A stretch of 39,877 nt of DNA, taken from assembly GCF_000420745.1 (NCBI RefSeq), contig NZ_ATVN01000025.1:1-39877 (forward strand), read 5' to 3'. This document shows positions 3,865 through 39,877 of the stretch, piece after piece; the stretch's first letter is position 1; every line of letters begins with the position of its first letter. The position numbers and the translations under genes are program-made. The notes under the pieces were generated by a model. That model searched no databases, was not told where the DNA came from, and was given only the letters and a program-made list of their open reading frames with translations. Origin of the DNA: Pseudorhodobacter ferrugineus DSM 5888 (GTDB lineage: Bacteria; Pseudomonadota; Alphaproteobacteria; Rhodobacterales; Rhodobacteraceae).

Positions 3865-3884
3865 AGTTCTACACACCTCTAACT

Positions 3885-13590: not shown

Positions 13591-13635
13591 AACAATTGCC
13601 GCCTAAATGCACAAATTTGCGCATAAAATATCATT

Positions 13636-13650: not shown

Positions 13651-13653
13651 TTG

Positions 13654-13750: not shown

Positions 13751-13777
13751 TTCGTGCTCCTTGATTGAGGGTTGAAG

Positions 13778-19761: not shown

Positions 19762-19859
19762 ACCGATCTTATGGGATCATCCCCAGTCTATTGGCTGGGC
19801 CTTGCGTACCACACTCTCCTCGTGCTTTAAATACCAAAACACACGCTTAGGTATTTGCC

Positions 19860-20429: not shown

Positions 20430-20492
20430 TAAAGATCTTCTGGATGATGTGTGCTGCCGAACGTAGAACAAATACCCTCGTAGATTGAACGC

Positions 20493-22691
20493 TCAAACAG
20501 TCTCATCGCTTCGACTTTTGTAATCGTATCGATAGCTGTAGCCGTAACTATAGCCACCTTGGCCACGGGCCCTCCGAGGGTCAAAACCGTTAAGAATGAC
20601 GCCGTTCAGGCGCACACCGGCGGCATCAAGCGTGCGGCGCATTGCAATGACCTCGGCAATCGGAGTTTCGGCATAGCGTATGATGCCAATTGTTGCGCCA
20701 ACCGCCCGTCCGATGATCACTGGATCAGTCACTGCCAGCACCGGTGGGGTATCACAAATTGTCAGATCGAACCAACTATCGAGCGTATTAATCACTGTGC
20801 TAAACTCGGATCGCATCAAAAGCTCGGATGGATTTGGCGGGTAGCGTCCCGACGGGAGAAACATAAGGCCGGGCACAGGGCCCTCGACCAAGACGTCATC
20901 AAGGGTCGCCTCACCAGAAATAACCTCGGAAAGCCCGGGTTGGTTCTTTGCAACACCGAAATATTGCCGTAAGTGTCCACGCCGCAAATCGGCGTCCATT
21001 ATGCAAACGGTTTGCCCCGATTGTGCTGCGACAACTGCAAGGTTTACGGCTGTGAATGATTTCCCGGCGTCTGGTGCAGTACTCGTCAAAGCGATTGAAC
21101 CCGTTTTTGCGTCCAGCATGCCGAAGTGCAGGCTCGTGCGCAGAGAACGAAACGCCTCGGTGGTAAGGTCGTCAGGATGGGTCAGCGCATGTATAGGCAG
21201 ATCTCCCTTTCGGCCCATGTTCTTAGAAGGCGGGGCAAGGTTAACTGTCGCGAATACCGAGAGGCTAAGTTGCTCTAACTCATCCACGCCTTGCACGCCG
21301 CGCCGCATCCAGTGTCGCAAGAGAACAAGGCCGATACCAAATAACGTGCCCAAGACAAGTGAAAGCGCAAGAATTGTGGACTTGCGTGGTGCAATTGCAT
21401 TTTGGCCAGTTCGTGCGCTGTCAATAATCCGTACATTACCGATGTTGCTCGCACGAAGCACCTGCAGTTCCTGACGTCGGTTCAACAACTGGGTGTAAAC
21501 AGTTTGAGCGACTTCAAGAACACGAGTGAGGTTGATTATTTCGCGCTGGGTTTTGGGTAGGGCATCAACCTCTGTGCGTAACTCAGCAAGGCGGTTTTCA
21601 AGGATAGCACGGTTGTTGAGCAAAACCTGATAAACTGGGTGATTGCTTTTATAGCGCTGCGACACCTCATCTTCTTTTAGCTTAGTCGCTTCAATTTCGC
21701 TTTCCAAACGCGTGACCTGGGTCAGCAGGCTTTGCGCCTCAAGCGCAAGGTCCACCGATTGCTGGGCCTGCCGGTATTGGTTCAGGGCCGCCTCTGCCTC
21801 GGTGACGGCACGCTCTGCCTCGGGCAACTGGTCTGCAATGAAGCCAAGGCTGCTTTCTGCCTCGGCAGCACTCCGCGCGACGTTCTGCCTCAAATATGAA
21901 CCAGAAATGGCCCCAAGGATTTGTTGTGCTCGCTCAGGGTTTTGATCGGTAAAGCGAAGTTCGAGAATGCCAGACTGACGCCCCTTTTCTGAAACGTTGA
22001 GGTTGTCTCGGAGACTGGCAATAGCACTACTTTCGCTGCGCTGACTGATGATAAAACTGCGGCCCTGTTTTCCAACCAGTTCGCCAATCTTCAGCGCGAA
22101 TTTGGCCTCAGCCACGCGCAATGTCTGTCCCACTTGGCCGTCGATTTGTCGTCCATCAGGCAGGGTGGCAACATACCCTCCGTCACCATTGGATATGACA
22201 TCAATCTCTTTACCAACCCATTCTGGAGGCGATTCCAGCAAATCCAAACGGATGCGTTCCTCTGTCCGTGCATATGGCTCAAGCAGGCCAATTTCTGGGA
22301 TAGGCAGTGCATAGTGCTGGAGCGCATGTCCGATCAGGGGTGCAAGACGGGGCTCAGCCTGCCAGTCCAGCTTGAGGTCGGCAACAGCCTGTCCCAACAC
22401 CATCCGCGAGCGAGCTATCTCTATTTCCGCGACACTTTTAGGAGTTTCACCCGCCAATCCAGCCAATGCGTCTGGAAGAGCAAGCTGGCCGCTTTTTTCT
22501 TCGAGCTGCAGAAGGCTATCGGCTTGATACGTGGGGGGTGTGATCAACACATAGGCAACACCAATCATCGAGAACAGAACCATGCTCAGGAAGATCAAGC
22601 CTTTTCCGGCCCAAAGCCGTGTCACCAGCTGTCCAAGGTCTATCTCATCATCTTCGGGCTGCTGCATTTGGGGTGCGGGAAGATTGCTCAT
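20493..22691 (-). CDS. wzc: Wzc: polysaccharide co-polymerase and BY-kinase
   Basis: A 732-residue inner-membrane protein. The N-terminal Wzz domain has its first span near 30-50 and PPTYQADSLLQLEEK. A long periplasmic coiled-coil region follows (about 270-400), with the PRKSTILALSLVLG second span near 430. The cytoplasmic tyrosine kinase has Walker A APDAGKS (539-545), Walker A' CIMDADLRRG (563-572) and Walker B TICDTPP (644-650). The Tyr cluster YSYGYSYRYDY at 714-724 has six tyrosines for autophosphorylation. It sets chain length with Wzb and Wza. It starts one base after the wzb stop, in the operon wza-wzb-wzc. Confidence 0.95.
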   Translation of the reverse strand: MSNLPAPQMQQPEDDEIDLGQLVTRLWAGKGLIFLSMVLFSMIGVAYVLITPPTYQADSLLQLEEKSGQLALPDALAGLAGETPKSVAEIEIARSRMVLGQAVADLKLDWQAEPRLAPLIGHALQHYALPIPEIGLLEPYARTEERIRLDLLESPPEWVGKEIDVISNGDGGYVATLPDGRQIDGQVGQTLRVAEAKFALKIGELVGKQGRSFIISQRSESSAIASLRDNLNVSEKGRQSGILELRFTDQNPERAQQILGAISGSYLRQNVARSAAEAESSLGFIADQLPEAERAVTEAEAALNQYRQAQQSVDLALEAQSLLTQVTRLESEIEATKLKEDEVSQRYKSNHPVYQVLLNNRAILENRLAELRTEVDALPKTQREIINLTRVLEVAQTVYTQLLNRRQELQVLRASNIGNVRIIDSARTGQNAIAPRKSTILALSLVLGTLFGIGLVLLRHWMRRGVQGVDELEQLSLSVFATVNLAPPSKNMGRKGDLPIHALTHPDDLTTEAFRSLRTSLHFGMLDAKTGSIALTSTAPDAGKSFTAVNLAVVAAQSGQTVCIMDADLRRGHLRQYFGVAKNQPGLSEVISGEATLDDVLVEGPVPGLMFLPSGRYPPNPSELLMRSEFSTVINTLDSWFDLTICDTPPVLAVTDPVIIGRAVGATIGIIRYAETPIAEVIAMRRTLDAAGVRLNGVILNGFDPRRARGQGGYSYGYSYRYDYKSRSDETV

Positions 22692-22692
22692 G

Positions 22693-23136
22693 TCAGGTGG
22701 TGCCTTTTGCTGCCAAACGCGTGGCCCAAGCCTTGGCAGCGGTTGAGATCAGATCGAATGTATTTTCGTGAAATGCGAGTGGGAGCTTGTAGGGATCAGG
22801 GATACCTGCGCCTCCACTCCAATGATCAAATAGCATGATCCGACCGCGAAGATGTGGTGCCTGTTTGGAGATTTCGCGGCGGTGGCCTTCTTCCATCACG
22901 AGGATCAGGTCGTTTTCTTCGCCTATCCGGTTGGTAAATTGACGCGCAACATGCCCATCGAGCGAGACACCGTGAGATTTTGCAACTTCTGTCGCAGTGC
23001 TGTCAGCGCTATGTCCTACCAAGGCGCCAATTCCTGCAGACGTCACTTTCACTTTTGGAAGCAGGCTCGCCAGAATGCGTTCGCCAACAGGCGATCGGCA
23101 AATATTGCCAACACACACGACTAGGATACTATTCAT
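22693..23136 (-). CDS. wzb: Wzb: low-molecular-weight protein tyrosine phosphatase
   Basis: A 147-residue phosphatase. The P-loop CVGNICRS at residues 8-15 fits C-x5-R-S, with Cys8 as nucleophile, and IPDPY near 110-115 holds the general acid Asp. It removes phosphate from the Wzc tyrosine cluster and so lets the export complex cycle. It lies 12 bases after wza and one base before wzc. Confidence 0.95.
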   Translation of the reverse strand: MNSILVVCVGNICRSPVGERILASLLPKVKVTSAGIGALVGHSADSTATEVAKSHGVSLDGHVARQFTNRIGEENDLILVMEEGHRREISKQAPHLRGRIMLFDHWSGGAGIPDPYKLPLAFHENTFDLISTAAKAWATRLAAKGTT

Positions 23137-23148
23137 TAAAACCTCTTC

Positions 23149-24210
23149 CTAGTTTCCGACAGCATCTACGGCCGCAACGCCTTGCACCGACGGAAGAAGC
23201 CCGCTGATTGTATCATTCCAACGTTGAAGCGGCGACCGCGTGATATAGACGACGTCACGTGGTTCCAGCACAAACTGGGTGCCCAGAAGGAAACCCATAG
23301 GTGACGATGTCTCAAGCTGGAAGACCGTCATTCGGGATCCAGTTGCGCGGAAAACAAACACACCTCGCGCATCGGCACGCTGCTCATCCAGTCCACCTTG
23401 TCGGGTCAAGGCCTGTGTTAGTGTTACTGGCTCAACGGACAAATCAACTGGGGCAGGTTTCTTGACCTGCCCTAGGATAAACGCCTCTTCTGCCTTGCGG
23501 CGAGGAACTGTTACAATATCGCCCGAACGTAAAACGGGATTATTCTTGCTAAGGCCCGAGGCGAGGAACCCTTCATAGTCCACCTTGTAGAGCGTCCCGT
23601 TGCGCTGCACAGTCACGCGCCTCGCGTCGGCTGTCTCTTTCAGCCCACCCGATGCATTGACCGCTTCGACCAAAGTCAAAGGCGTTGTTGTCAGCGCATG
23701 TTTGCCAGGAGCCTCTACCTGGCCGGAGACGACGACGCTTTGGGAATTGAACGCGGCTATGCGGACATCAACCTGTGGATCAGGAATAAATTCAGCAAGC
23801 CGTTTTGCCACTTCGTCGCGGATGGCGGCAATTGACTGACCACGCGCTTGAACCTGGCCGATGTAGGGATAGAAAAAATTTCCATCGGCCTGCACCAAAA
23901 TCCCACTTTCCTCAGCGCTGCGCTGTGGTCCAGCGGGCAGTGTTAGTTCAGGATGATCAAAGACAATAATGTTTAGGACATCGCCCACACCAACACGGTA
24001 CTCCCATCCACGGCTGCCAGGCAAATTGGTTGGGCCGGCAACATGGCTAGGGCTGGAAAAGCTTGCGATGTTAGTGGCGTCAAGTTTGATGATGGTAACA
24101 TCTTGTGAAAGGTTTTTCTGAGCCGATTCAGTTACCGGAAATCTTACAAACCCCTCAGTACAGGCGGACAGCAAGAATATTGCCGAGAGAAGGCTGATGC
24201 GAAGTTTCAT
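23149..24210 (-). CDS. wza: Wza: outer-membrane polysaccharide export lipoprotein
   Basis: A 353-residue protein. The start at 24210 gives a lipoprotein signal with lipobox LLSAC (Cys17); the longer frame to 24264 would spoil it. The Poly_export domain follows (WEYRVGVGDVLNIIVFDHPE). Then come SLBB-type repeats (VVVSGQVEAPGKHALTTTPL and AFILGQVKKPAPVDLSVEPV). A C-terminal stretch (LQRWNDTISGLLPSVQGVAA) could be the membrane-spanning helix. It forms the exit channel and docks on Wzc. First gene of wza-wzb-wzc. Confidence 0.93.
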   Translation of the reverse strand: MKLRISLLSAIFLLSACTEGFVRFPVTESAQKNLSQDVTIIKLDATNIASFSSPSHVAGPTNLPGSRGWEYRVGVGDVLNIIVFDHPELTLPAGPQRSAEESGILVQADGNFFYPYIGQVQARGQSIAAIRDEVAKRLAEFIPDPQVDVRIAAFNSQSVVVSGQVEAPGKHALTTTPLTLVEAVNASGGLKETADARRVTVQRNGTLYKVDYEGFLASGLSKNNPVLRSGDIVTVPRRKAEEAFILGQVKKPAPVDLSVEPVTLTQALTRQGGLDEQRADARGVFVFRATGSRMTVFQLETSSPMGFLLGTQFVLEPRDVVYITRSPLQRWNDTISGLLPSVQGVAAVDAVGN

Positions 24211-24561
24211 CGTCCACCCGAATTTTGCTAAATTCAGACCTAAGCCACTCGCTCGATAAGTCATCGCTGTACCATTCGTGTTTATGCTGGATCATTTGGA
24301 AGTGTTCGAATGATGCAGATTGTCATGTGAAAAGTCGGGCTTCCAACTGCAGGCCACTGATTGAGCACCTGCAGCTAACTTGGAGAGAGATAACATTACC
24401 GAACTGACAATTTCCAGTAGCATTTTTGAGATTGAGAAAGCGATATTTTCAAGTGGTTCCACCCTGCGCTGATTTTGCAACATTAATGCCCTGCCCGAAA
24501 ACAACTTTTGCGCCTAAACCGCGCCTTAATGGCAGGCGCCGTCTTTCCATGTGGCTGAGCG
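24211..24561. other. Gap between the nusG-like gene and wza
   Basis: No credible gene is present. It should hold the wza promoter. The hairpin GCGCCT (24521-24526) / AGGCGC (24534-24539) lies just beyond the nusG-like stop and may be its terminator, although the T-run is weak. Confidence 0.4.
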
Positions 24562-25095
24562 TCAGGGGCATCGATCGACCATGGTAGGGTCCACTAGCAC
24601 CTTCGTTGGACGTCCCATCAAATCCAAAAGGACATGGAGGCGACGATCAGGATCAATTTTTTCAATGGATGTGATAAAGTTGGCGAAAGGTCCCCCGATA
24701 ATCCTGACCGTGTCTCCTGCGGAGAAGTTTTCGACGGTTTCCTGGAGCAGCCCGTCACGGTCGCAGCGCTGCAACAACCCTGCAATGATATCTGGAGGTA
24801 CGACCGAAGGGCCGCCTGTGCTGTGCCCGATAATCTTCGAGACACCCGAGGCGGTTTTTGCATCATACCATCGTGGCTCTGACGGGTTCATGTTCAAAAA
24901 CAGATACCCACCGAAAAGAGGACGCAGTTCGGTCAATGCGCGACCTTTGACGCGGCGTTCGACCAGGTGGCGGGGCATGAAGAGACCAAAGCCCAACCTC
25001 TTTAGGTTGCGAAAAGCGATATGGTTCTGGTTTGGCTTGCACAGCAACAAGTGCCATTGTGCGGCCGTAAAATTATCAGGATGGTATGATAGCAT
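24562..25095 (-). CDS. NusG/RfaH-like transcription antiterminator
   Basis: A 177-residue NusG paralogue. The NGN domain covers about residues 10-110 (AQWHLLLCKPNQNHIAFRNL, FMPRHLVERRVKGRA, LFGGYLFLNMNP) and the KOW domain about 120-177 (FSAGDTVRIIGGPFANFITS then IEKID). Such specialised paralogues (RfaH, UpxY, LoaP) keep RNA polymerase going through long polysaccharide operons. ATG at 25095 has GGGGG six bases upstream. It is placed between the export genes and the 10-kb sugar gene run, which is the natural target. The recruiting DNA element is not identified. Confidence 0.88.
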   Translation of the reverse strand: MLSYHPDNFTAAQWHLLLCKPNQNHIAFRNLKRLGFGLFMPRHLVERRVKGRALTELRPLFGGYLFLNMNPSEPRWYDAKTASGVSKIIGHSTGGPSVVPPDIIAGLLQRCDRDGLLQETVENFSAGDTVRIIGGPFANFITSIEKIDPDRRLHVLLDLMGRPTKVLVDPTMVDRCP

Positions 25096-25596
25096 TGCAG
25101 CCCCCTAGGCTCACAAATGAACGCAAGTATCAGTCTGAGCAAGAAAAAAGTTTCATATATTACTACCCTAAGGGGCAATTTATCTCTCGCACTAGCAATC
25201 AATTTGAGGTATTCGGCCTTGTGTTTTGGGCTATTTCTAACGTTTTCCTGTGTCTTGCTAAGTCACTTAAGGGGTTCGATCACTTCGAATGGCCGTGCGT
25301 GAGCCTGTCCGATAGCCACACTAGATTATGAAATTATCTTATTGATAGTTTTCAATTGACAGTAGTGATGCTCAAAGAACTAAACTGGCCATTGGGATGG
25401 CACGGTGTTTGGTGCTGTCTCGTATTTGATCAGTTCTGCCCCGGTCCAGTGCTCCCACTCTTCCTTATGGCTGGGGCAATTTACAAGAACCACACCGCAT
25501 AGCGGATATTGGTCCATTGAGCCGCCAGACCGCTTTGGCCGCTCATCGTGCCAGACAAGGCCGTCGGAGTGGCAGACCTAATACATTAGGAGCCTC
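25096..25596. other. Divergent region between nusG-like and galU
   Basis: It probably holds both promoters; TTGACA at 25357-25362 with weak CTAAAC downstream is a rightward candidate. On the minus strand 25380-25517 an open 45-codon frame starts MDQYPLCGVVLVNCPSHKEE and contains EHWTGAELIKYETAP. It may be a small gene or a relic, and its family is not recognised. Confidence 0.35.
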
Positions 25597-26475
25597 ATGC
25601 ACTCAACAATCCGAAAAGCTGTCTTTCCCGTCGCAGGCATGGGCACGCGGTTTCTTCCCGCCACCAAGGCCATGCCGAAGGAACTTCTGCCCATCATAGA
25701 CAAGCCGCTCATCCAATATGCCGTGGAGGAAGCCATCGAGGCGGGTATCACCCAGCTGGTCTTTGTGACAGGCCGAACCAAGCGGGCTATTGAGGACCAT
25801 TTTGACACGAACCCTGCGCTCGAGCGCGAGCTGCGCGATACCGGCAAAGATGCTATTGCAGATATGGTCCACGCGATCGTTCCTGATCATGTCAGTTGTA
25901 TTTATATCCGGCAGCCCGAGGCATTGGGTTTAGGCCACGCGGTGCTCTGCGCAGAGCCAGCCATCGGTCACGAGCCCTTTGCTGTTCTGCTCGCGGACGA
26001 TGTAATACGGGCCAGCGTGAAACCAACCGCAGCTTTAGTTGCGGCTTATGCAAAGCAAGCAGGCACGTATCTGTCGGTGATGGACGTGGCCCGCAGTGAA
26101 GTCTCGGGGTATGGCATGATTGTTCCCGGGGCGACGCTTGGCTCCGTTGGGGGCCTCGTTGAAAAACCGCTAGCCAGTGAGACACCATCGCTGCGGGCCT
26201 CAATCGGGCGGTATGTACTTGAGCCAGATATTTTTGACCTGTTGCGCGATCAGCGGCCTGGGGCAGGTGGTGAGATCCAACTTGCGGATGCCATTGATAG
26301 CCAGGCGCGACAGGGCCGTGTCTTCGCAGAGCTGCTGAACGGGCAGCGCTATGATTGCGGCTCGAAGTTTGGCTACCTAAAAGCCATCGTCGATTTCGCC
26401 CTTGCGCATGAAGACTACGGATCTGATTTCCGGCGTTTTGTTTTGGACCGCACGCAACAGCAGGCGGCGGAGTGA
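25597..26475 (+). CDS. galU: UTP-glucose-1-phosphate uridylyltransferase
   Basis: A 292-residue enzyme that makes UDP-glucose from UTP and glucose-1-phosphate. The nucleotide-binding signature GMGTRFLPATKAMPKELLPI is at residues 14-33. Further family segments are LVFVTGRTKRAIEDHFD, EALGLGHAVLCAEP and GRVFAELLNGQRYDCGSKFGY. The length is normal for bacterial GalU. ATG at 25597 follows AGGAG. It supplies UDP-glucose directly and, through GalE at 33916, UDP-galactose for the polymer. Confidence 0.95.
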   Translation: MHSTIRKAVFPVAGMGTRFLPATKAMPKELLPIIDKPLIQYAVEEAIEAGITQLVFVTGRTKRAIEDHFDTNPALERELRDTGKDAIADMVHAIVPDHVSCIYIRQPEALGLGHAVLCAEPAIGHEPFAVLLADDVIRASVKPTAALVAAYAKQAGTYLSVMDVARSEVSGYGMIVPGATLGSVGGLVEKPLASETPSLRASIGRYVLEPDIFDLLRDQRPGAGGEIQLADAIDSQARQGRVFAELLNGQRYDCGSKFGYLKAIVDFALAHEDYGSDFRRFVLDRTQQQAAE

Positions 26476-26732
26476 GATGCGCAAGGTCCTGTGTAGGCTA
26501 CATCAATTCGTCAGAGGCGATCGTCCAAGCCCAATGAATGAGAATCCAAAATAGCCGTCGCGGGAGTGTGGCGTGTCGGCAATTTTTTCGCGCGGCGGCG
26601 CAGGATCGGGCTGCAACCCCCAAGCGTTCTTTGGTTACTAGAAATGTCGTAATTGCGCCCATCAGATGGATTTAAAGCTCGAAGTCGCGAGTTGATCAGG
26701 TCCAGCTGCTAGTAACACTAGAGGAGTCATCT

Positions 26733-27722
26733 GTGGAAAAGTTAGTTGTGATCGGTGGTTCTGGCTTTATCGGGACCCGGTTGTGCCAAAGGCTTTCGGA
26801 TCATCAGATCCCGTTCGAGATTCTCGATCTCAAGCCTAGTCGGCGTTTCCCCGACAAGAGCCGTATCACGGATATCCGAGATCTAGCGCAATTGCGTGCC
26901 GCCGTCTCAGGCGATGTGATCATCCACCTTGCCGCCGTGCATCGTGATGACGTGACTAATCCTGACGACTATCAGACCACGAATGTAGACGGCACCGCCA
27001 ATGTCTGCACTGTTGCTGCCGAAAAAGGCATCAATCGGATAGTCTTTACAAGCAGTGTTGCGGTCTATGGATTTGCGCCTTTGGGTACCGACGAAAGCGG
27101 AGCGATTGCTCCCTTTAACGCCTACGGGCGCACCAAATACGAGGCAGAAGGCAAGCTGGAGGCCTGGCTATCTGCGAATGCTCAGGCATCGCTGATGATC
27201 GTGCGGCCGACCGTCGTCTTCGGGGAAGGCAATCGCGGCAATGTCTTCAATCTGCTAAATCAGATCGCTTCAGGGCGGTTTTTGATGATTGGCAACGGAC
27301 GAAACCGCAAGTCTATGGCCTATGTCGAGAATATCGCCGCCTTCCTGCACCATGCCAGTGGCATCCCCACGCGCCGCGTCGTGGTGAACTATGTCGACGG
27401 CCCCGATTTTGACATGAACAGCCTCGTCTCGCTGGTGCGCCAAAAGCTGCGCGGAAAATACGGCACCGGCATGCGCCTGCCTTATTGGCTCGGTCTCGCG
27501 CTGGGATATGTCGCCGACCTCGTGACTAGGGTGACCGACAAAAAGCTTCCTGTCAGTTCGATCCGTGTGAAGAAATTCTGCTCCGATTCCGCGTTCCTGT
27601 CCGCCAAAGAGTCGATCTGCGGGTTCAAGGCCCCCATTTCGCTTCAGGATGGAGTGTTACGCACGCTGGAGGCCGAATTCATCTCTCCCGATCTCGGACG
27701 CGAAATCTTCTTTACCGAATAA
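26733..27722 (+). CDS. NAD-dependent sugar-nucleotide epimerase/reductase
   Basis: A 329-residue extended short-chain dehydrogenase. The Rossmann motif GGSGFIG is at residues 8-14, the T-S-S strand is FTSSVAVYG, and the catalytic pair is YGRTK (Tyr and Lys). The segment GNGRNRKSMAYVENIAAF recalls the WbpV/WreQ-type C4-reductases that make UDP-QuiNAc. This would fit a WbpL-like primer enzyme at 17699, but plain 4-epimerase action is possible. The start is GTG at 26733. The 257-base gap after galU holds no gene. Confidence 0.85.
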   Translation: MEKLVVIGGSGFIGTRLCQRLSDHQIPFEILDLKPSRRFPDKSRITDIRDLAQLRAAVSGDVIIHLAAVHRDDVTNPDDYQTTNVDGTANVCTVAAEKGINRIVFTSSVAVYGFAPLGTDESGAIAPFNAYGRTKYEAEGKLEAWLSANAQASLMIVRPTVVFGEGNRGNVFNLLNQIASGRFLMIGNGRNRKSMAYVENIAAFLHHASGIPTRRVVVNYVDGPDFDMNSLVSLVRQKLRGKYGTGMRLPYWLGLALGYVADLVTRVTDKKLPVSSIRVKKFCSDSAFLSAKESICGFKAPISLQDGVLRTLEAEFISPDLGREIFFTE

Positions 27723-27880
27723 ACGCCGCTTCCCGCGGATCACAGGATATCGATAAACCGTGCGTCACGGCTCCAAACATAGCAAAGTTTGTGGACTGGT
27801 ACCGTAAATATTATGTTGATTGGCAAAGAAATAGTGCGTCATAGCATCAGGCTTTGGCACAATAGGTGTTTTGAAACCTG

Positions 27881-29164
27881 ATGGTACGTCGTTTATCTTC
27901 TCCTCTATTGCGGAACGTCTTTGCCGTCGCCTCTGGCACAGCCTTGGCGCAGGTCATCGTCTTCGCCTTTTCGCCGCTGATCACACGCATTTACAGCCCC
28001 GAAGTTTTCGGCTTGCAAGGTGTGTTCATGTCGCTGGTGAGCATCCTTAGCCCTGTCATCTCCCTGCGTTACCCCATGGCGATCGTCACCGCCGAAACGG
28101 AAGACGAGATGCTGCAATTAGCCCGGCTTTCGCTGATCGTAACTGCTGTGCTCTCATGTGCATTAGGGCTATTGTTGGTCGCGGGTGGTGCGCCACTAGC
28201 AGCCGTTTTCGGGGCTGAAGGTTTAGGTTTACTGATTTATCTATTACCGGTAGCGACCTGTTTCGTTGCGATACAAGACGTAGCGGACTACCGTGCCGCC
28301 CGCTTGGGCGCTTTCCGACTGGTGGGTAAAGTGACGGCCATCGTCGCCTTCGTCACCAGCTTGGCAAAGGTGCTCAGCGGGCTCGCCGCTCCGGTTGCTG
28401 CCACGCTTATTGTTTTTAATGGGCTTGCGCCAGCGTTCAAAGCGGCGTTGTTGCAGCGTGGCACCAAAAGCCTTCCAGTGCGCGTGCCGCGGCTGGGACG
28501 CGCCAAAATGTTCACACTGCTCAAAAAATATCGCGATTTCCCGATCTACCGAGCGCCGACAGATTTGCTGAATGCGGTGTCGCAGGCGCTACCAGTTATT
28601 TTGCTTGCAGCGCTTTTTTCACCCTTAGTGGCGGGCTTCTTTGTGCTGGCGCGGAGCGTTACCAACCTGCCAATGAATGTTTTAGGGGTTGCGATCGGCA
28701 ATGTCCTGTATGCAAAATTTGCCGATATGGAACGTTCAAAACAACCGTTGTTCCCGTTGGTATTCAAGATCACGGTAGTCCTGCTATGCGTCCCAGGCAC
28801 CGCCTTGGCCGCCGCCGCGCTATTTTTCCCCGCCCTCTTTTCCTTTGTTTTTGGTGAGGTTTGGCGCGCATCAGGCGAATATGCCATGTGGATGAGTTTG
28901 TGGCTGATCTGTATGCTTGTAAATATCCCAACGGTCCGAGCATTACCGGTTATCCAAAGGCAGGGCCTGCACTTAGTGTTCAATATTGTTATTTTTGGCG
29001 CTGGGGGCATGAGTTTTCTGGCTGGCTATATGATTGAACAGACACCATTGGCTGCGGTTATCTGGTTTTCAATTGGGACAGCTTCAGCCTTGGTCATACA
29101 GATAATCACTTACTTGGTCGTAATCCTACTGCATGACCAGATTGCATTGGGATCAAAACAATGA
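27881..29164 (+). CDS. wzx: Wzx-type polysaccharide flippase
   Basis: A 427-residue membrane protein of the MOP/MATE superfamily with about 12 predicted spans. It begins RNVFAVASGTALAQVIVFAF then SPLITRIYSPEVFGLQGVF, the usual Wzx/RfbX start. It moves lipid-linked repeat units across the inner membrane. Wzy and the glycosyltransferases follow in the same direction. Confidence 0.88.
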   Translation: MVRRLSSPLLRNVFAVASGTALAQVIVFAFSPLITRIYSPEVFGLQGVFMSLVSILSPVISLRYPMAIVTAETEDEMLQLARLSLIVTAVLSCALGLLLVAGGAPLAAVFGAEGLGLLIYLLPVATCFVAIQDVADYRAARLGAFRLVGKVTAIVAFVTSLAKVLSGLAAPVAATLIVFNGLAPAFKAALLQRGTKSLPVRVPRLGRAKMFTLLKKYRDFPIYRAPTDLLNAVSQALPVILLAALFSPLVAGFFVLARSVTNLPMNVLGVAIGNVLYAKFADMERSKQPLFPLVFKITVVLLCVPGTALAAAALFFPALFSFVFGEVWRASGEYAMWMSLWLICMLVNIPTVRALPVIQRQGLHLVFNIVIFGAGGMSFLAGYMIEQTPLAAVIWFSIGTASALVIQIITYLVVILLHDQIALGSKQ

Positions 29165-29218
29165 GCAAAAAAATTTGCTAACAAAGCTGCAGCAAGACAA
29201 GACTGCGAGGATTTACCC

Positions 29219-30394
29219 ATGCCCGAGATAAACCAACCCGACATTCAGGCTGAAGAGGTATTCGAAGGTCTTCGCATTGTTCTTTTGGTACACAGCTTGC
29301 TTGGCGGCGGGGCAGAGCGTGTGACCGTGAACCTTGCGACTGATTGGGCTGACTGCGGCGCCCGGGTGAGGATTGTTATCCTTGGAAACGCTGATCAAAA
29401 ACAATATGATCTGCCAGAAAATATAGATTTCACTGCGCTCGGGCTTGCAGCTACAAGTCGGGGACCAGTGCAGGCGATGATGAACAATATCAAGCGGTTA
29501 TTGGGTATGCGTAAGTTCCTTGCGCGCGAGAAACCTGACGTCGTGATCGGTATGGGCACAACTATGGCAACGTTACTCGCGTTGATCAGGACGAAGCGTT
29601 ACATCGCCATCGGATCGGAGCACAACCATCCACCAATGCAACCGATTGGTCCTGTCTGGTCCTTTTTGCGACGGTGGAGCTATACGCGCCTCGACAGTGC
29701 CACTGTTCTGACGGGGCAAACGCGTGATTGGATTGCCGCGAATACTCGTGCAAAAAAAATAGCAGTGCTGCCTAACGCGATTAGCCTGCCGCTGCCATTA
29801 AATGCGCCGTTTCTGCCGTTGGAAAAAGTTATGGTATCGGGACGGAAGATGTTGCTCGCCGTCGGGCGACTGCAGAAGGTGAAAGGTTTCGATTGTCTGA
29901 TTGAGGCATTCGGTGAGGTGCATGTAGACCACCCCGACTGGGATCTGGTGATACTGGGCGAGGGTACAGAACGCACTGCGCTCGAGGCACAGATCCGTAC
30001 AGATGGGCTTCAAAACAGGATCAAAATGCCGGGTTGGGCCGGCAACATCGCCGACTGGTATCAGGCCGCCGACCTGTTCGCAGTAACTTCTCTTACCGAA
30101 GGCTTTCCAATGGGGCTCGTCGAAGCCATGGCGCATGGTTGCGCCGCCGTCAGCGTCGATTGTGATACCGGACCGCGTGACATAATCGACCACAATCGCA
30201 ACGGAATATTGGTACCGCAGGATGACCCTGCCGCATTAGTCGGTGCGCTGGACCGGCTAATGCGGGATGAAGACCTGCGCGCAAAGCTGGGGCATGCTGC
30301 CACCGAGGTAACGGACAGGTTTTCGCCCGCGCGCATCAACGCCCGGTGGGCAACGCTTCTTCAGCCGACGGCGCAAGATCAGGGGCTAGACTGA
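29219..30394 (+). CDS. GT4-family glycosyltransferase 1
   Basis: A 391-residue GT-B enzyme. The N-terminal domain has the GGGAERVTVNLA loop (residues about 32-43). The donor-binding domain has AVGRLQKVKGFDCLIEAF, VILGEGTE and the E-x7-E motif EGFPMGLVEAMAHG. The preference could be a hexose or HexNAc; the sequence does not decide. ATG at 29219 has GAGG eight bases upstream. The stop TGA overlaps the ATG of the next gene. Confidence 0.9.
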   Translation: MPEINQPDIQAEEVFEGLRIVLLVHSLLGGGAERVTVNLATDWADCGARVRIVILGNADQKQYDLPENIDFTALGLAATSRGPVQAMMNNIKRLLGMRKFLAREKPDVVIGMGTTMATLLALIRTKRYIAIGSEHNHPPMQPIGPVWSFLRRWSYTRLDSATVLTGQTRDWIAANTRAKKIAVLPNAISLPLPLNAPFLPLEKVMVSGRKMLLAVGRLQKVKGFDCLIEAFGEVHVDHPDWDLVILGEGTERTALEAQIRTDGLQNRIKMPGWAGNIADWYQAADLFAVTSLTEGFPMGLVEAMAHGCAAVSVDCDTGPRDIIDHNRNGILVPQDDPAALVGALDRLMRDEDLRAKLGHAATEVTDRFSPARINARWATLLQPTAQDQGLD

Positions 30395-31479
30395 TGGCGC
30401 ATATAGCCCTGTTTTTACCGTCGCTACGGGGTGGCGGCGCTGAGCGTGTTATGGTCACGCTGGCCAATGGCTTTGCCGCGCGGGGGCACCGAGTCGATCT
30501 GGTTCTTGCAAGGGCAGAGGGACCATACCTGTCAGAAGTGGCAGACAATGTTCGCATCGTAGATCTGGACAAAGGCCGGGTTCTGGCTAGCCTGTTGCCG
30601 CTCGCCCGCTATCTGCGGCGCGAAAGGCCCGATGCAATGCTGTCGGCGCTGAACCATGCCAATATCATTGCGATCCTTGCCCGAAAACTGTCTCGGACAC
30701 AAACAAGGCTGGTGGTCAGTGAGCACAGTACACCATCACAGAGCCTTCGCGGGTCAGGCATGAACGGGCTCCTGCGACGACTGATAAGCCTGGCCTACCC
30801 TTGGGCAGATAAGATCGTCTGTGTCTCTAAGGGCATGGAAAAAGAAATGCACAGCTATCTGGGGCTTCCAAAGCACAAACTTGAGACGATCTATAATCCG
30901 ATTGATATCGACAAAGTACAAAGTGCCATGGTCGAACCGGTCGACCACTCGTGGTTCACTAATCGGGACGCCCCCGTTATTCTTGCTGTCGGGCGCTTGA
31001 CCAAAGCAAAAGATTATCCGACGTTGCTAGCTGCCTTCGCGCAGCTGCGCATGAAACGGCCCGCAAATCTGATCATACTGGGGCACGGGGAAGAGAAAGA
31101 CGCGCTGTCCAGCCTTGCTGACCGGCTTGGCATTAGTGCAAACGTCGATTTCGCCGGATTTAAATCGAACCCATACGCATGGATGGCAAAATGCGATCTT
31201 TATGTAATGTCATCGGCGTGGGAAGGTTTGCCCGGCGTTTTGCTTGAGGCGATGGCCTGTGGAGCGAAGATTGTCAGCACAGATTGCCGAAATGGACCAA
31301 CCGAAATTCTTGAGGGTGGCCGCTGGGGGCGACTGGTGCCTGTTGCTGACGCGAGCGCGTTGGCGAAAGCGATCACAGAGGCACTGGAAGATGAAACACC
31401 ACCCAATGCGAGAGCGAGGGCGCAGGTGTTTCGGAGTGAAGAAAGTATTGAAAGCCATCTTTTTGTGCTGACACGATGA
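30394..31479 (+). CDS. GT4-family glycosyltransferase 2
   Basis: A 361-residue GT-B enzyme. It begins MAHIALFLPSLRGGGAERVM and has AVGRLTKAKDYPTLLAAFAQ, NLIILGHGEEKD and the E-x7-E motif EGLPGVLLEAMACG. ATG at 30394 is chosen because it overlaps the previous stop and lies at the conserved N-terminus. It is a close relative of the upstream enzyme, possibly an old duplication. Confidence 0.9.
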   Translation: MAHIALFLPSLRGGGAERVMVTLANGFAARGHRVDLVLARAEGPYLSEVADNVRIVDLDKGRVLASLLPLARYLRRERPDAMLSALNHANIIAILARKLSRTQTRLVVSEHSTPSQSLRGSGMNGLLRRLISLAYPWADKIVCVSKGMEKEMHSYLGLPKHKLETIYNPIDIDKVQSAMVEPVDHSWFTNRDAPVILAVGRLTKAKDYPTLLAAFAQLRMKRPANLIILGHGEEKDALSSLADRLGISANVDFAGFKSNPYAWMAKCDLYVMSSAWEGLPGVLLEAMACGAKIVSTDCRNGPTEILEGGRWGRLVPVADASALAKAITEALEDETPPNARARAQVFRSEESIESHLFVLTR

Positions 31480-31511
31480 AATCTTCCCCCGATAGCCGAG
31501 AGTTCGGCTAA

Positions 31512-32756
31512 ATGATTGTAAATTATCGCTTGACTGCAGGCCGTCTGTCGATCGGTTCCTTAATCTTGGGCCTTTTCATACTTTATTTCAGTAGCTATCA
31601 CTTCTACTCAACGCCCGTAGTAAAACAGCTATATTTTCAGCTTGCCTTCGTGGTGTTTGCAGTTTTGTGGATCACAAGCTTCTTCAAGGATATTTTAATT
31701 AAAGATAACAGTGTTGTCGTAATTCTGATATGGAACTATTTATACGTCATTTATGTGATACTTTCATACCTTAATTCAGCACAAACGGAAATTCCGACAC
31801 AGATTCTGATTTCATACTTAAAGACCCCTGTTTTTTTGGTTCTATTCATTTTCCTTTTTATGAAACGGTCGACGACCTCGGTGACTGGCAAGTTTAACGT
31901 AATATTTATGCTTGTTGCTTTATTTGCAGTAATTTCAAATTTTTATGACTTCATAAGCCCATCGTTTAGCTCTGTTCTTGGTCGAGCAGCAGGTTATTAC
32001 GTTGATCCAAATATTTCTGGGGGCGTAATTTCATTCATGATGGTAGCTGGATTTTTGGCCGTCCCGCGCGGATTTCGTATTTTGTTTATTTTAATATGCG
32101 GATTGGGTGTGTTGATCACGTTCAGCAGAGGCGCATGGCTCGTCTGGGGGATTGGTGTTTTGTGCTTGGGGTGGATAACTCATAGGGGTTCAAATAAACG
32201 AAAACTCCTTTCATTACTGGGACTATTTGCGGCGGGATTATTCGCGATGACCCTTCTTTTCTCTGGGGCAATCGGCAGGATTGCAGATGGCAGCCCTTTA
32301 TCTAGGTACTTGACGCCTGACACAAGCGCTCGCCTAGGAATCGGTGGATCGCAGTTCGCAGATCATTCTGCAAATGAAAGATGGGATGTTAGTTTTGCTG
32401 CGTTAGATGCAGGATTGGAATCCCCCTTATTCGGTAACGGATTGGCTTTTACCAGAGAACAGTTTGGCTGGACATTTGATGTTTCCACACACAACATGTA
32501 CCTGTTGTTCTGGGCAGAAGGCGGAATAACTGGCCTTTCTATTTATATATCGTTTCTATATATTATTTTTTATTATAGTAGTAATGTGGGCCGTATATTT
32601 ATTTTGCAAATGACAGTCTATAGTCTTTTTTCACATACACTACTCGAGTGGCCGTTGACCGCAATTTTGGCCGCATATTTCGCAACTAATGGTGATAGAA
32701 ATTGGAGTCAATGTCGTGCCAATCTAATTTCGAACAGAAACTTAGCACAAAAGTGA
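31512..32756 (+). CDS. wzy: Wzy-type polysaccharide polymerase
   Basis: A 414-residue membrane protein with about 10-12 spans and one larger loop. The loop region (SARLGIGGSQFADHSANERW) followed by SPLFGNGLAF and STHNMYLLFWAEGGITGLSI is typical of the O-antigen ligase/polymerase superfamily (Wzy_C). It joins repeat units in the periplasm. The gene is visibly richer in A/T than its neighbours, which is usual for wzy. It overlaps the next gene by 46 bases. Confidence 0.85.
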   Translation: MIVNYRLTAGRLSIGSLILGLFILYFSSYHFYSTPVVKQLYFQLAFVVFAVLWITSFFKDILIKDNSVVVILIWNYLYVIYVILSYLNSAQTEIPTQILISYLKTPVFLVLFIFLFMKRSTTSVTGKFNVIFMLVALFAVISNFYDFISPSFSSVLGRAAGYYVDPNISGGVISFMMVAGFLAVPRGFRILFILICGLGVLITFSRGAWLVWGIGVLCLGWITHRGSNKRKLLSLLGLFAAGLFAMTLLFSGAIGRIADGSPLSRYLTPDTSARLGIGGSQFADHSANERWDVSFAALDAGLESPLFGNGLAFTREQFGWTFDVSTHNMYLLFWAEGGITGLSIYISFLYIIFYYSSNVGRIFILQMTVYSLFSHTLLEWPLTAILAAYFATNGDRNWSQCRANLISNRNLAQK

Positions 32757-33919
32757 CCGTCCTGCACATCATAACCGGCCTGCATGACGGTGGCGCCGAG
32801 GCCGTTCTATTCCGGCTCTGCACGCAGGATCAGGCGTACCAGCATCACGTTGCCTCTTTGAGGGACGCAGGTAAATACGGCCCTCTGCTGGAAGCACAGG
32901 GCGTGCGCGTGACCTGCCTTAGTATGCCGCGCGGGCGTGTGACGGTCTCGGGGCTATGGCGGCTTTGGTGTTTGATACGCAAGGAACGCCCCGCTGTTAT
33001 CCAGACATGGATGTATCACGCCGATCTGGTGGGTGGCGTCATCGCCAGACTTGCCGGACACCGTAATATTGTCTGGGGTATTCGTCACACGACACTCGTG
33101 CCGGGGCAAAGCCCACGGACTACGATCTGGGTCGCGAAGGTCTGTGCGCGCCTGTCGCGTATCGTGCCAAGGCGTATCGTGTGCTGCGCTGAAAAGGCGC
33201 GCGAAGTGCATGCAAAGCTTGGGTATGACCGTGACCGTATGCAGGTGATCCCAAATGGCTACGATCTTTCGGTGTTCCAGCCCAACCCATCGGCAGGGCA
33301 GCAGGTGCGGCACGCGTTGTCGCTGGATAAAGCGGAGGACGTCATCGGCTTTGTGGCGCGCTACGATCCGCAAAAAGACCATGACAACCTTCTGCGGGCG
33401 TTGGCGATACTGAACGGCCAAGGCATATGTCCGCAATGTTTGTTGGTGGGAACCGGGCTTGTTGCCAGAAATACTATCCTAGTGGAACGTATTTCAGAAT
33501 TGGGGTTGCAGGATCTTGTTCACCTGATTGGCTGCCGTAACGATGTTCCAGCGTTGATGAACGCGCTAGACCTGCATGTCATGTCATCGGCATTCGGAGA
33601 AGCCTTTCCAAACGTGCTGGCCGAGGCGATGGCCTGTGGTACGCCCTGTGTGTCGACTGATGTTGGCGATGCTGCCGAAATCGTTGGCCCTACGGGCCGT
33701 ATCGTCCCGCCCCGCAATCCTGAAGCGCTTGCCAAAGCGATTAGAACGATGCTGGCCGAGAAAGTCGGCCCTGATTGGACCGTCCGCCGCGAAGATGCTC
33801 GCCGCCGAGTAAGTGAACGTTATTCGCTTTCGCAGATGGTGGACAGTTACCACGAAGTGTGGGTCGGGCATGGACAACATGGCATGGATCGCAAAAGTAA
33901 TGACGAGGACGTAAAATGA
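32711..33919 (+). CDS. GT4-family glycosyltransferase 3
   Basis: A 402-residue GT-B enzyme: VTVLHIITGLHDGGAEAVLF at the N-terminus, GFVARYDPQKDHDNLLRALA and the E-x7-E motif EAFPNVLAEAMACG. ATG at 32711 has GGAG close upstream and lies inside the end of wzy. The 3' end overlaps galE by ATGA, so the genes are coupled. Confidence 0.9.
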   Translation: MSCQSNFEQKLSTKVTVLHIITGLHDGGAEAVLFRLCTQDQAYQHHVASLRDAGKYGPLLEAQGVRVTCLSMPRGRVTVSGLWRLWCLIRKERPAVIQTWMYHADLVGGVIARLAGHRNIVWGIRHTTLVPGQSPRTTIWVAKVCARLSRIVPRRIVCCAEKAREVHAKLGYDRDRMQVIPNGYDLSVFQPNPSAGQQVRHALSLDKAEDVIGFVARYDPQKDHDNLLRALAILNGQGICPQCLLVGTGLVARNTILVERISELGLQDLVHLIGCRNDVPALMNALDLHVMSSAFGEAFPNVLAEAMACGTPCVSTDVGDAAEIVGPTGRIVPPRNPEALAKAIRTMLAEKVGPDWTVRREDARRRVSERYSLSQMVDSYHEVWVGHGQHGMDRKSNDEDVK

Positions 33920-34935
33920 AAATCTTGTTGACTGGTGGGGCAGGTTACATCGGCTCTCACGTTCTGGTGTGTTGTTTGCAAGCTGGCCACGATGTCTGCG
34001 TCCTCGATAATTTCTCAAACAGCTCGCCCGAAGCTATTACGCGGGTTGAGGCCCTTTGCGAGCGAAAGGTGCATGTCGAGCGCGGTGATATCCGCGATAT
34101 TGCTCTGCTGCGCCGGATTCTTTCCGAAGGTGGCTTTGACGCTGTGCTACATTTCGCGGGCGTCAAAGCGGTCGGCGAAAGTGTCGCAAAACCGCTGAAA
34201 TACTACGACATCAACGTCGCGGGCAGCATCACTTTGGCGCAAGCTATGCAGGAAGCTGGGGTCTACCGGCTTGTGTTTAGTTCGACGGCAGCAGTGTATG
34301 GCGATCAGTCCGCGATGCCCTTGACTGAAACCAGTGCATTGGGTCAGGCGGCTAGCCCCTATGGTCGTTCGAAACGGATGGTTGAACAAGTGTTCGAGGA
34401 TTTGCAGATGTCCGATCCCCGTTTCGGCATCGCGATCCTGCGGTATTTCAATCCTGTCGGTGCGCATCCCAGCGGCCGTATCGGTGAAGACCCCCGCGGC
34501 GAGCCTGCTAACCTGGTTCCGTATGCCATGCAGGTGGCCGTTGGTCAGCGTGAAGTTCTGTCGGTTTTCGGCGATGACTATCCAACCTCCGACGGAACCG
34601 GGGTCCGCGATTACATTCACATCATGGATTTAGCGCAGGGCCATTTGGCAGCGTTGGACTACCTTGTTTCAACTTCAGAATATCGCGTCTGGAACCTTGG
34701 CACAGGGCGGGGACATTCGGTCAAAGAAGTCATCAATTGTCTGAATGAAGTGACAGGTAAGGTGTTACCTTTACGCATTGTAGAGCGCCGCCCAGGTGAT
34801 ACGGCGCAGTGCTGGGCGGATCCATCAAAAGCTGTTGCTGACCTTGACTGGCATGCGACGCGTGGTTTGCATGATATGCTTGCCGACCATTGGCGTTGGC
34901 AGCAGCAGAACCCGGACGGCTATGGAAAGCGTTGA
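33916..34935 (+). CDS. galE: UDP-glucose 4-epimerase
   Basis: A 339-residue short-chain dehydrogenase that interconverts UDP-glucose and UDP-galactose. It has TGGAGYIGSH (residues 6-15), DNFSNSSPEA, HFAGVKAVGESVAKPLKYYD, FSSTAAVYGD and the catalytic YGRSK. The tail GVRDYIHIMDLAQGHLAAL and YNLGTG-like WNLGTGRGHSV are classic GalE. It is coupled to the GT before it. With galU it gives the locus its own UDP-galactose supply. Confidence 0.95.
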   Translation: MKILLTGGAGYIGSHVLVCCLQAGHDVCVLDNFSNSSPEAITRVEALCERKVHVERGDIRDIALLRRILSEGGFDAVLHFAGVKAVGESVAKPLKYYDINVAGSITLAQAMQEAGVYRLVFSSTAAVYGDQSAMPLTETSALGQAASPYGRSKRMVEQVFEDLQMSDPRFGIAILRYFNPVGAHPSGRIGEDPRGEPANLVPYAMQVAVGQREVLSVFGDDYPTSDGTGVRDYIHIMDLAQGHLAALDYLVSTSEYRVWNLGTGRGHSVKEVINCLNEVTGKVLPLRIVERRPGDTAQCWADPSKAVADLDWHATRGLHDMLADHWRWQQQNPDGYGKR

Positions 34936-36070
34936 ACTTATTGAAATAGTGGAAAGTTCAGAAATGAGAGTCAAACCTCGCATAATGATCCTCAGCACGA
35001 ATAGCGATGAAGCTGGTGCCCCACTACATGTTGAGATGCTTGTCCAAGCGTTGGCGCATGATGTAGATTTCACTATTTTATTTGGTAAGGATGGCCCAGT
35101 GTTGCGCCGCCTCAAAGATGCGGGTTTCGATGCACGCCTTTTGAGCGGGATGCGAAGCGCAATCAGCCCACTTGCAGATTTGAAGCTGCTGCGCCGAATT
35201 GACTTCTTGATCGCCGAGATCAAGCCGGACCTTATCCATTGTCACAGTTCTAAAGCTGGGCTTTTGGGACGATTAGCTGGTCGCCGTAGACGAGTGCCAG
35301 TTCTGTTCAGTATTCATGGCTGGAGTTGGTCAAGCGTTTCCGGTCCGAAGTCACAACTTGCTTTGATGATCGAGCGGATGGTTGCAACACTTCGCGGCGT
35401 TCACTTCTTATATGTCTGCGAGGCGGTCGAAACGACAGGCTATCGTATGCTTGGGTTACGAGCAGATCAAGGCACCGTCATTTGCAACGGCGTTCAGGAT
35501 CTGAGTTACGGTAGTCGGCCGCGGAATCGGACGCCGCACTTCATTATGCCAGCGCGGGTGAGTTATCCTAAAGATCATGAAACCCTCGTCCGAGCCTTTG
35601 AAAGCTTACCAGAGGAAAGTCGTTTGGTGCTTTGCGGCACTGGTACCGATAGTGAGGAATTTTCTGCCTTGGTGCGGCAATGGGCACCTATGCGGCACAC
35701 GGCAATAGACTGCCTTGGCCCGCGCAGTGATATTCCCGATTTGCTGCATCAGGCAGATGTCATGGTGCTGTCATCGGCATCAGAGGCGATGCCCCTGTCG
35801 ATTATTGAGGCGATGAGTACAGGTTTGCCTGTCATAGCCAGCGATGTAGGCGGCATTCCTGAACTCATTGCACCGGAGTTTAACGGTTATCTTGTTCCTG
35901 CGGGCGATATTACATCATTTGCCCTAGCGATGACGAAGTTAATAGACCCGCAGAGGCGCGAAGACTTTGGGCGGCAAAGCCGCCTTCGCTATGAAACAGC
36001 TTTCACTGTATCAATTATGGCGCAGCAAACGCTCGCCTGCTATCGCCGCCTTATAAAAATTTCCACTTAG
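34922..36070 (+). CDS. GT4-family glycosyltransferase 4
   Basis: A protein of about 382 residues of the GT-B type. It has IMILSTNSDEAGAPLHVEML, LIHCHSSKAGLLGRLAGRRR, ARVSYPKDHETLVRAFESLP and the E-x7-E motif EAMPLSIIEAMSTG. The KAGLLGRLA part resembles WcaA/PglA-like enzymes that act early on lipid-linked sugars. The start is ATG 34922 (overlapping the end of galE) or ATG 34964. It is the last intact gene of the rightward run; a broken fucose-synthase gene follows. Confidence 0.88.
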   Translation: MESVELIEIVESSEMRVKPRIMILSTNSDEAGAPLHVEMLVQALAHDVDFTILFGKDGPVLRRLKDAGFDARLLSGMRSAISPLADLKLLRRIDFLIAEIKPDLIHCHSSKAGLLGRLAGRRRRVPVLFSIHGWSWSSVSGPKSQLALMIERMVATLRGVHFLYVCEAVETTGYRMLGLRADQGTVICNGVQDLSYGSRPRNRTPHFIMPARVSYPKDHETLVRAFESLPEESRLVLCGTGTDSEEFSALVRQWAPMRHTAIDCLGPRSDIPDLLHQADVMVLSSASEAMPLSIIEAMSTGLPVIASDVGGIPELIAPEFNGYLVPAGDITSFALAMTKLIDPQRREDFGRQSRLRYETAFTVSIMAQQTLACYRRLIKIST

Positions 36071-38424: not shown

Positions 38425-38703
38425 ATGCCAACTCCGGTTGCGGTCAAACTGGACGCAGACGTCCATAGCCGTATGAAAGCACTTGCGGAGGCGCGGGACA
38501 GATCTCCGCATTGGATGATGCGTGAGGCGATTTACCAATATATCGAGCGCGAGGAAAAGCGTGAAGCGTTCCGCCGTGATGGTATCCGCTCGTGGGAGGC
38601 TTATCAGGAGACGGGTCTGCATGTGACACATGCCGAGGCAGATGCTTGGCTTGCCCAGCTCGCCGCTGGTGACGATCAGGAGCCGCCTGAGTGCCACAAC
38701 TGA
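38425..38703 (+). CDS. Ribbon-helix-helix antitoxin (pair 3)
   Basis: A 92-residue CopG/RelB-like antitoxin. The N-terminal ribbon-helix-helix reads PVAVKLDADVHSRMKALAEA then RDRSPHWMMREAIYQYI. The C-terminal tail (HVTHAEADAWLAQLAAGDDQ) would bind the toxin. It overlaps the toxin gene by 13 bases. It differs from both ParD proteins at 2093 and 6672. Confidence 0.9.
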   Translation: MPTPVAVKLDADVHSRMKALAEARDRSPHWMMREAIYQYIEREEKREAFRRDGIRSWEAYQETGLHVTHAEADAWLAQLAAGDDQEPPECHN

Positions 38704-38990
38704 TCTGGTCGCCCGAGGCGCTGGCAGATGTTCAGCGCCTTTACCGGTTCCTTGCCCAGAAGAGCCCAGATGCTGCCAGACGTGCGGCAAGTGCGATCCG
38801 TGACGGGATGCAGATCATTGCAGACCACCCTGATATCGGCCGCCCCGTCGACGACATGGACCCAGAGTTTCAGGAATGGCCGATCAGCTTCGGTGCCAAC
38901 GGGTATGTGGCGCTCTACCGTTTGCACAAAGACGTGGCTCTGGTCGTCGCGGTGCGTCACCAGAAAGAGGTTAGCTATCAACCTTCATAG
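38691..38990 (+). CDS. parE: ParE/RelE-superfamily toxin (pair 3)
   Basis: A 99-residue toxin: LIWSPEALADVQRLYRFLAQ, then PDIGRPVDDMDPEFQEWPIS and YVALYRLHKDVALVVAVRHQ. This is the ParE/RelE fold order of helix hairpin and beta sheet. The start is GTG at 38691 inside the antitoxin gene. It is probably functional. Confidence 0.9.
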   Translation: MPQLIWSPEALADVQRLYRFLAQKSPDAARRAASAIRDGMQIIADHPDIGRPVDDMDPEFQEWPISFGANGYVALYRLHKDVALVVAVRHQKEVSYQPS

Positions 38991-39297: not shown

Positions 39298-39602
39298 CTA
39301 CTGGTTCAAGATACGATGGACGCTCATACGGCTGATACCCATAGCCTCTGCAATCTTGTAGGTGGACAGACCTTCACCCTTGAGTTGGTGGACCTTGTCC
39401 CTATTGATCACCTTCCGGCCACCCTTGTAGATGCCCTTGGCCTTCGCCTTGGCAATGCCCTCAGCCTGACGCTTGCGGATGATATTCCTCTCGAACTCAG
39501 CGAATGCGCCCATCATCTGCAGTTGTAGCTTGGCGAAAGCATCCTCAGCATCCGACGAGAACGTCAGGCGCTCTGATAGGAATGTAATAGCCACACCCTT
39601 GT
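39298..39602 (-). pseudogene. Serine resolvase/invertase, C-terminal half, split by IS66
   Basis: This is the continuation of the gene cut at 363. It reads DKGVAITFLSERLTFSSDAE, then LQLQMMGAFAEFERNIIRKR, the long E helix of serine recombinases. It ends in a helix-turn-helix (STYKIAEAMGISRMSVHRIL) that binds res DNA. The first codon is completed by the last base of the N-terminal half (G plus AC). Together they give 180 residues, a normal resolvase length. Confidence 0.9.
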
Positions 39603-39610
39603 CATTGATC
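39603..39610. repeat. 8-bp IS66 target-site duplication, left copy
   Basis: CATTGATC, identical to 363-370, directly before the left IS66 terminus. Confidence 0.9.
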
Positions 39611-39877
39611 GTATGCGGTGGTTCCAGCCCATTGATTTGATGTATTCCTGACGCGTGATGCGCCTGCGAGAAGGTCTGCGGTAGCAGATGGAGGTTTTGC
39701 ATGGCGGATGGTGGTGAGGGTTTTGTGGGGCGGTGCGAGGTCGTGGAACCTCGACGGCGCGGCAAGCGGCATTGGCCGGATGATGTGAAAGCGCGGATCG
39801 TGGCTGAAAGCCTGCAGCCCGGTGCCCGGGTCGTGGATGTCGCGGCGCGCTACGACATCCTGCCTCATCATTTGTCG
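39611..39877 (+). mobile_element. IS66-family element, left-hand end
   Basis: The left terminal repeat begins GTATGCGGTGG at 39611. Its inner part shares CCATTGATTT with the right terminus. About 60 bases of leader then precede tnpA. The element runs off the window end and re-enters at position 1. Confidence 0.9.
39701..39877 (+). CDS. tnpA: IS66 TnpA (Orf1), N-terminal fragment
   Basis: 59 codons from ATG at 39701 to the window edge. The segment [20 protein letters not shown] followed by [20 protein letters not shown] is the start of IS66 TnpA, a small helix-turn-helix protein of the IS3/IS66 OrfA type. The window ends exactly on a codon boundary, in frame with the tnpC fragment at position 1. 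Confidence 0.88.

Follow-up and report, generated by a model that had tools for sequence, protein, structure and literature searches.

Both ends of contig C25 from Pseudorhodobacter ferrugineus DSM 5888 carry part of an IS66-family element and, next to it, part of a small serine resolvase gene. Do the two ends form a single locus, split by one insertion, and is the contig the greater part of a circular plasmid? The window analysed here is the entire contig C25 (39,877 bp), which belongs to a draft assembly of 42 contigs (3,430,274 bp).

One IS66-family element at both ends of the contig

C25 starts with the 3' end of an IS66-family element and finishes with the 5' end of the same element, and both adjoin the octamer CATTGATC (Table 1). 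The preliminary description had placed the IS termini at 362 and 39611 beside the same octamer, and this was confirmed: the 3' end reads ...GCTTAC up to 362 and is followed by CATTGATC, while the 5' end begins GTATGCGG... directly after the second copy. In the whole 39,877 bp, the octamer occurs on the + strand at these two places only, and once on the other strand. The IS ends form terminal inverted repeats (21 of 30 terminal bases agree with the inverted other end). The match to the IS66 transposase (TnpC, DDE_Tnp_IS66) comes from the C-terminal 86 residues only.

Seven of the 84 contig ends of the assembly bear this IS (400 bases checked per end; whole-genome searches gave the same seven). 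Three are right ends (C25 start, C34 start and C8 end) and four are left ends (C25 end, C30 start, C30 end and C19 start), all identical across the stretches present. The C25 3' end, for instance, is found at the C34 start and the C8 end with 100% identity over 332 and 315 bases respectively. An 8-bp target duplication was seen at all three right ends, the pairs being C25/C25 (CATTGATC), C34/C19 (GGTTTACC) and C8/C30 end (TCTTCAAA). Three shared octamers among 3 x 4 = 12 possible pairings compare with approximately 0.0002 expected by chance (12 x 4^-8). Every right end thus has exactly one partner, and this is strong internal evidence that both ends of C25 come from one insertion. One of the four left ends, at the C30 start, was partnerless, its octamer (CAAGAAGC) being absent within 150 bp of all 84 contig ends. 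C30 has a left IS end at both of its contig ends, in opposite directions (1-267 at its start).

The body of the IS was sought in the assembly and not found; the sole other IS66 transposase match, on C20, is unlike the C25 IS ends, and the assembled part of the C25 copy amounts to 629 bp only. A related Ensifer element measures 2699 bp from end to end, with 77% DNA identity to the C25 3' end and 71% between its head and the C25 5' end. Against plasmids, identity to the 3' end was 74.7-77.1% across its full length among the 20 matches listed; outside these, 69 of 227 plasmid records reach 80-90% identity at some place. The IS66 elements of Alphaproteobacteria (ISRm14-like; ISPpa5a and ISPpa7 of Paracoccus) resemble the C25 element in terminal repeats, 8-bp duplication and transposase C-terminus. 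In the tabulated part of one study, Paracoccus IS66 elements measure 2731 and 2829 bp and carry the value 8, which we read as the length of the target duplication (PMC3281130). By likeness to known IS66 elements, the C25 copy is expected to be approximately 2.7-2.8 kb long.

Table 1. Features of contig C25 (positions in the 39,877-bp window)
Feature	Position	Strand	Remarks
IS66-family 3' end (transposase C-terminus 1-261 and terminal inverted repeat)	1..362	+	PF13817 6.7e-18, PF03050 1.8e-07
8-bp target duplication CATTGATC, left copy	363..370	.	borders IS 3' end
Resolvase N-terminal part, catalytic serine region	363..600	-	PF00239 positions 1-89, 1.3e-18; alternative start 621
Putative res site, five exact TGTTAC/GTAACA words	615..709	.	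upstream of resolvase start
Fic/Doc-domain protein	1009..1392	-	PF02661 2.5e-10
Small ORF upstream of Fic/Doc gene, antitoxin by position only	1395..1643	-	no Pfam family
ParE/ParD toxin-antitoxin pair	1797..2362	-	PF05016, PF03693
AAA ATPase	2689..3876	-	PF13191; homologue precedes intact resolvase in P. antarcticus
ParE-like toxin ORF	6926-7261		PF05016
repA-repB-repC replication/partition module	12481..15904	-	PF03428, PF07506, PF13614; TIGR03453 and NF040974 over cut-off
Wzy-type polysaccharide gene cluster, cargo	17699..36070	.	Glycos_transf_4, Wzz, Poly_export, Polysacc_synt_3, Wzy_C, glycosyltransferases
NusG-domain protein, before polysaccharide genes	24562-25095		
545-codon ORF after polysaccharide genes	36514-38151		no Pfam family
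RHH / RelE-ParE toxin-antitoxin pair	38425..38990	+	85.7% DNA match to Sulfitobacter plasmid so annotated
Resolvase C-terminal part, end of catalytic domain and HTH	39298..39602	-	PF00239 positions 90-143
8-bp target duplication CATTGATC, right copy	39603..39610	.	borders IS 5' end
IS66-family 5' end	39611..39877	+	100% identical at both C30 ends and C19 start

The two resolvase pieces are parts of one gene

The N-terminal part (600-363) has 238 nt and the C-terminal part (39602-39298) has 305 nt. Their remainders modulo 3 are 1 and 2, and therefore the frames of both pieces are in register. The open frame of 543 nt claimed earlier was reproduced, with 180 codons and a stop, by arithmetic on the two separate pieces. 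The HTH family PF02796 scored 22.5 bits in the C-terminal piece, just below its cut-off of 23.8. At E 0.001, PF00239 matched three stretches in the whole genome: the two C25 pieces and one on C33. The same search found no second, intact copy of the split resolvase in the genome.

Each half was then queried separately in 394 genomes, the strain's own included, which is an independent test of the one-gene reading. Family-wide, at E 1e-12, the C-half matched in 75 of the 394 genomes and the N-half in 67. Among the 14 other genomes with a C-half match of at least 57% identity, the N-half abuts the C-half in one frame in 11, and the other three (G099, G249 and G084) had no N-half match at the limit used. 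Twelve relatives were fetched; in all of them both halves lie within one unbroken frame, with a start codon in 11. The half-matches overlap by two codons in 11 of these and by one codon in the twelfth (L084), the two-codon overlap being what the shared octamer predicts. In a larger set, 67 of 68 loci hold both halves in one frame (the exception is L172), a count that is partly so by construction, as the 80-locus search behind it was seeded with intact relatives. From the 80 loci, 67 plus L015 made up the 68 used for DNA and neighbour comparisons, and 63 went to the word count described below. Loci L173-L185 are more distant, include an Acinetobacter resistance plasmid and were left out of the locus comparisons; L106-L172 repeat records of several loci from the earlier relative search, so the two sets are not independent.

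The clearest case is Pseudorhodobacter antarcticus (NZ_FOCO01000069.1, locus L109), where an uninterrupted gene matches both pieces. DNA identity to this locus was 93.5% for window positions 363-765 and 94.4% for 39295-39615, and the two matches meet in it at the insertion point with a 13-base overlap, of which the duplication accounts for 8. The P. antarcticus site equals the octamer at six of eight bases and differs at two. The intact protein is 96.5% identical to the N-terminal piece and 99% to the C-terminal piece, and with the ATG at 621 as start the reassembled C25 resolvase would be 187 residues long, as is the frame in P. antarcticus. An ATPase homologue (57% identity, L109:422-1579) lies upstream of the P. 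antarcticus resolvase, in the same order and direction as in the window.

Both pieces are thus parts of one small serine resolvase disrupted by the IS. Had the halves matched two different genes, the preliminary description would have failed; the 11 of 14 genomes, the 12 relatives and P. antarcticus all point to one gene. Its claim that the two contig ends are one locus was borne out by the C25/C25 octamer pairing together with the single split resolvase. The candidate explanations by unrelated IS copies at the two ends, or by a pair of resolvase genes, were rejected on the octamer, the PF00239 copy count and the one-frame relatives.

A putative res site upstream of the resolvase

The five exact words of the putative res site are one third of the 15 TGTTAC/GTAACA words in the window. 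Among 200 windows simulated from the neighbouring-base frequencies of C25, none had more than three words in any stretch of 95 bp. The relatives show 10.5 words per kb in the 200 bp ending just past the start; over the 260 bp that adjoin this stretch, the density falls to 0.27 per kb. At least two words were present upstream in 36 of 58 loci, and the other 22 had fewer than two (63 loci entered the count, five being too short upstream). Among the first 12 relatives, seven had at least two exact words and five had none, one of these having only 84 bp upstream. When the window was aligned with 23 loci, the words fell at corresponding places; these loci were hand-chosen, mostly for having words, and the alignment therefore speaks for arrangement and not for frequency. 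The P. antarcticus upstream stretch is nearly the same as that of the window. From these comparisons we read the TGTTAC cluster as the likely res site used by this subfamily of resolvases. The cluster is not part of the IS and has survived the insertion whole.

A profile of 11 intact relatives matched 2r0q (4.5e-40) and 2gm4 (6.8e-35) across its length. In this full-length match and in the upstream cluster of half-site words, the C25 system is like the small serine resolvases of the gamma-delta/Tn3 and Tn552 (Sin) types. It differs from gamma-delta, Tn3 and Sin in that its resolvase is broken by an IS and its half-site word is TGTTAC. A Pfam scan of 40 ORFs or ORF pieces from the window turned up no Tn3 transposase.

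Circularity of C25 and alternative explanations

Since the resolvase halves sit at opposite ends of the contig, C25 very probably comprises almost all of a circular plasmid. The duplication and the split gene together imply that the ends of C25 were adjacent before the insertion; as the IS adds only itself, the sequence right end, IS, left end closes the circle. The simplest reading is a repABC plasmid of approximately 42 kb with polysaccharide genes. Its missing part, between 39877 and 1, would be approximately 2.1 kb, a value derived from the Paracoccus IS66 sizes and the Ensifer copy. The cumulative GC skew has its minimum near 8-12 kb, beside repC, and returns to about zero at the far end; such a course is compatible with a complete circle, but gene direction yields an identical curve, so we do not count it as evidence. 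A search for a sister plasmid among public plasmids gave three matching records, the best covering 4% of the 15.6-kb query.

We consider the following sequence of events highly probable. A repABC plasmid of a Rhodobacteraceae bacterium would once have possessed both a res site and the gene of a small serine resolvase. Into this gene a single IS66-family element, approximately 2.7 kb long, would have inserted, duplicating CATTGATC. The resulting circle of approximately 42 kb would then have been read as a 39,877-bp contig that starts and finishes in the same IS copy, because several copies of the IS share identical ends and the repeated IS body was left unassembled. Of the preliminary description, which proposed a whole repABC plasmid opened inside the IS, the adjacency of the ends at the time of insertion stands, while the present-day circle is the simplest reading of the contig. 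Its concern that the two ends might continue into different flanking DNA is answered in part: the other two IS66 right ends pair elsewhere by their own 8-bp duplications.

A once-circular plasmid with the IS in its resolvase could since have become integrated by recombination between IS66 copies, or could form a tandem multimer, so that C25 would now lie between two IS copies. The contig would look identical, and the genome does have two more paired IS66 insertions and one more left end, all with identical ends. The repABC module, however, argues for an autonomous replicon, and nothing in the contig sequences calls for integration; we regard this course of events as unlikely. That the ends are separate IS66 insertions in two similar resolvase genes, matching by coincidence, would draw on the fact that related resolvases are fairly common in the family, as the E 1e-12 counts given above indicate. 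Against this, the genome has only three PF00239 stretches, the third being 40% identical to the N-half, and the coincidence would have to extend to the octamer, the register of the frames and the same P. antarcticus gene as nearest relative of both pieces. Its probability is practically negligible, and the earlier argument that two unrelated IS copies would not share a duplication and split a gene in register held. A chimeric joining of contig ends by repeat collapse at the IS might be suspected in a 42-contig draft in which many contig ends share repeats; yet the resolvase halves beside the IS are single-copy in the genome and the octamers match, whereas a random chimera would yield no matching duplication. 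Such an artefact is very improbable.

On this reading, what was a draft contig becomes a defined and almost complete plasmid of approximately 42 kb with a repABC module and polysaccharide cargo. Matching IS ends across all contig ends through their target duplications is a way of closing contigs without reads. In the same genome, contig C17 (78,454 bp) has an exact 65-bp overlap common to both of its ends and is possibly a circular replicon of approximately 78 kb.

Consequences for resolution

The split resolvase is probably inactive. From established knowledge of resolvases, resolution should be lost on C25, because the part with the catalytic serine is cut off from the DNA-binding domain. 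Insertions of IS elements in plasmid genes are common, and the event is an ordinary IS disruption. For comparative work, the locus provides a naturally occurring plasmid in which the resolvase is broken and the res-like site is whole, together with a close relative that is intact.

The intact system would most likely have resolved multimers or cointegrates, and we lean towards a role in multimer control. The plasmid role of this resolvase is uncertain, because its relatives are often on very large contigs and repABC genes are not near them: several of them sit on contigs measuring 2.7 to 4.3 Mb, which are probably chromosomes, and RepA, RepB and RepC were absent near the resolvase in all 68 loci (flanks of at most approximately 6 kb per side). 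When 13 window proteins were tested across the 68 loci, only P. antarcticus had any, namely its ATPase.

By analogy, losing the resolvase while keeping the res site might be non-neutral, favouring multimers or IS66-mediated fusion of replicons while the plasmid relies on repABC partition and its toxin-antitoxin genes; we think this distinctly improbable. In SGI1, a genomic island found in Gammaproteobacteria, a Tn3-like resolution system is reported to be disabled by an insertion, with direct repeats left behind; concatemers are more numerous and longer-lived when resolution is missing, and the authors suggest a non-neutral effect of this kind for their island. Both cases are insertions into a resolution system; in SGI1 a resistance cluster interrupts the res site (PMC12217951), whereas in C25 it is the resolvase gene itself that the IS has split, leaving a whole res-like site.

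Other genes of the plasmid and of the genome

Several toxin-antitoxin genes are present on the plasmid. The Pfam scan of 40 ORFs or ORF pieces from the window revealed no drug-resistance genes. In the parCBA-parDE region of RK2/RP4, a resolvase and the ParDE toxin-antitoxin are close together on a plasmid, as on C25; RK2/RP4 differ in replicon type, and C25 has a broken resolvase and further toxin-antitoxin genes. The NusG-domain protein is, by its position, presumably RfaH-like. The 545-codon ORF had no match in the eight other genomes of its genus. Across 393 other family genomes the closest RepC was 55% identical, and in the wider contig collection 18 pattern stretches were obtained for RepC, none of them confirmed.

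Three direct repeats (2557-2588, 4032-4084 and 39210-39252) are 92.5-93% alike over 29-43 bp and share the core TTAGGTDGTTTTCAATYTATGGGT. Across the C25 junction, the ATPase and the block of resolvase and toxin-antitoxin genes lie between these copies. The core was not found elsewhere in the 3.43-Mb assembly at up to two mismatches, and a 56-bp query gave no match in the plasmid collection.

Contig C33 (8.9 kb) carries a second repC together with a serine recombinase frame of 308 codons (1110-6137, in part locus L087), the recombinase being the third PF00239 match mentioned above. The strain probably has another repABC-type replicon, since both genes are borne by C33.
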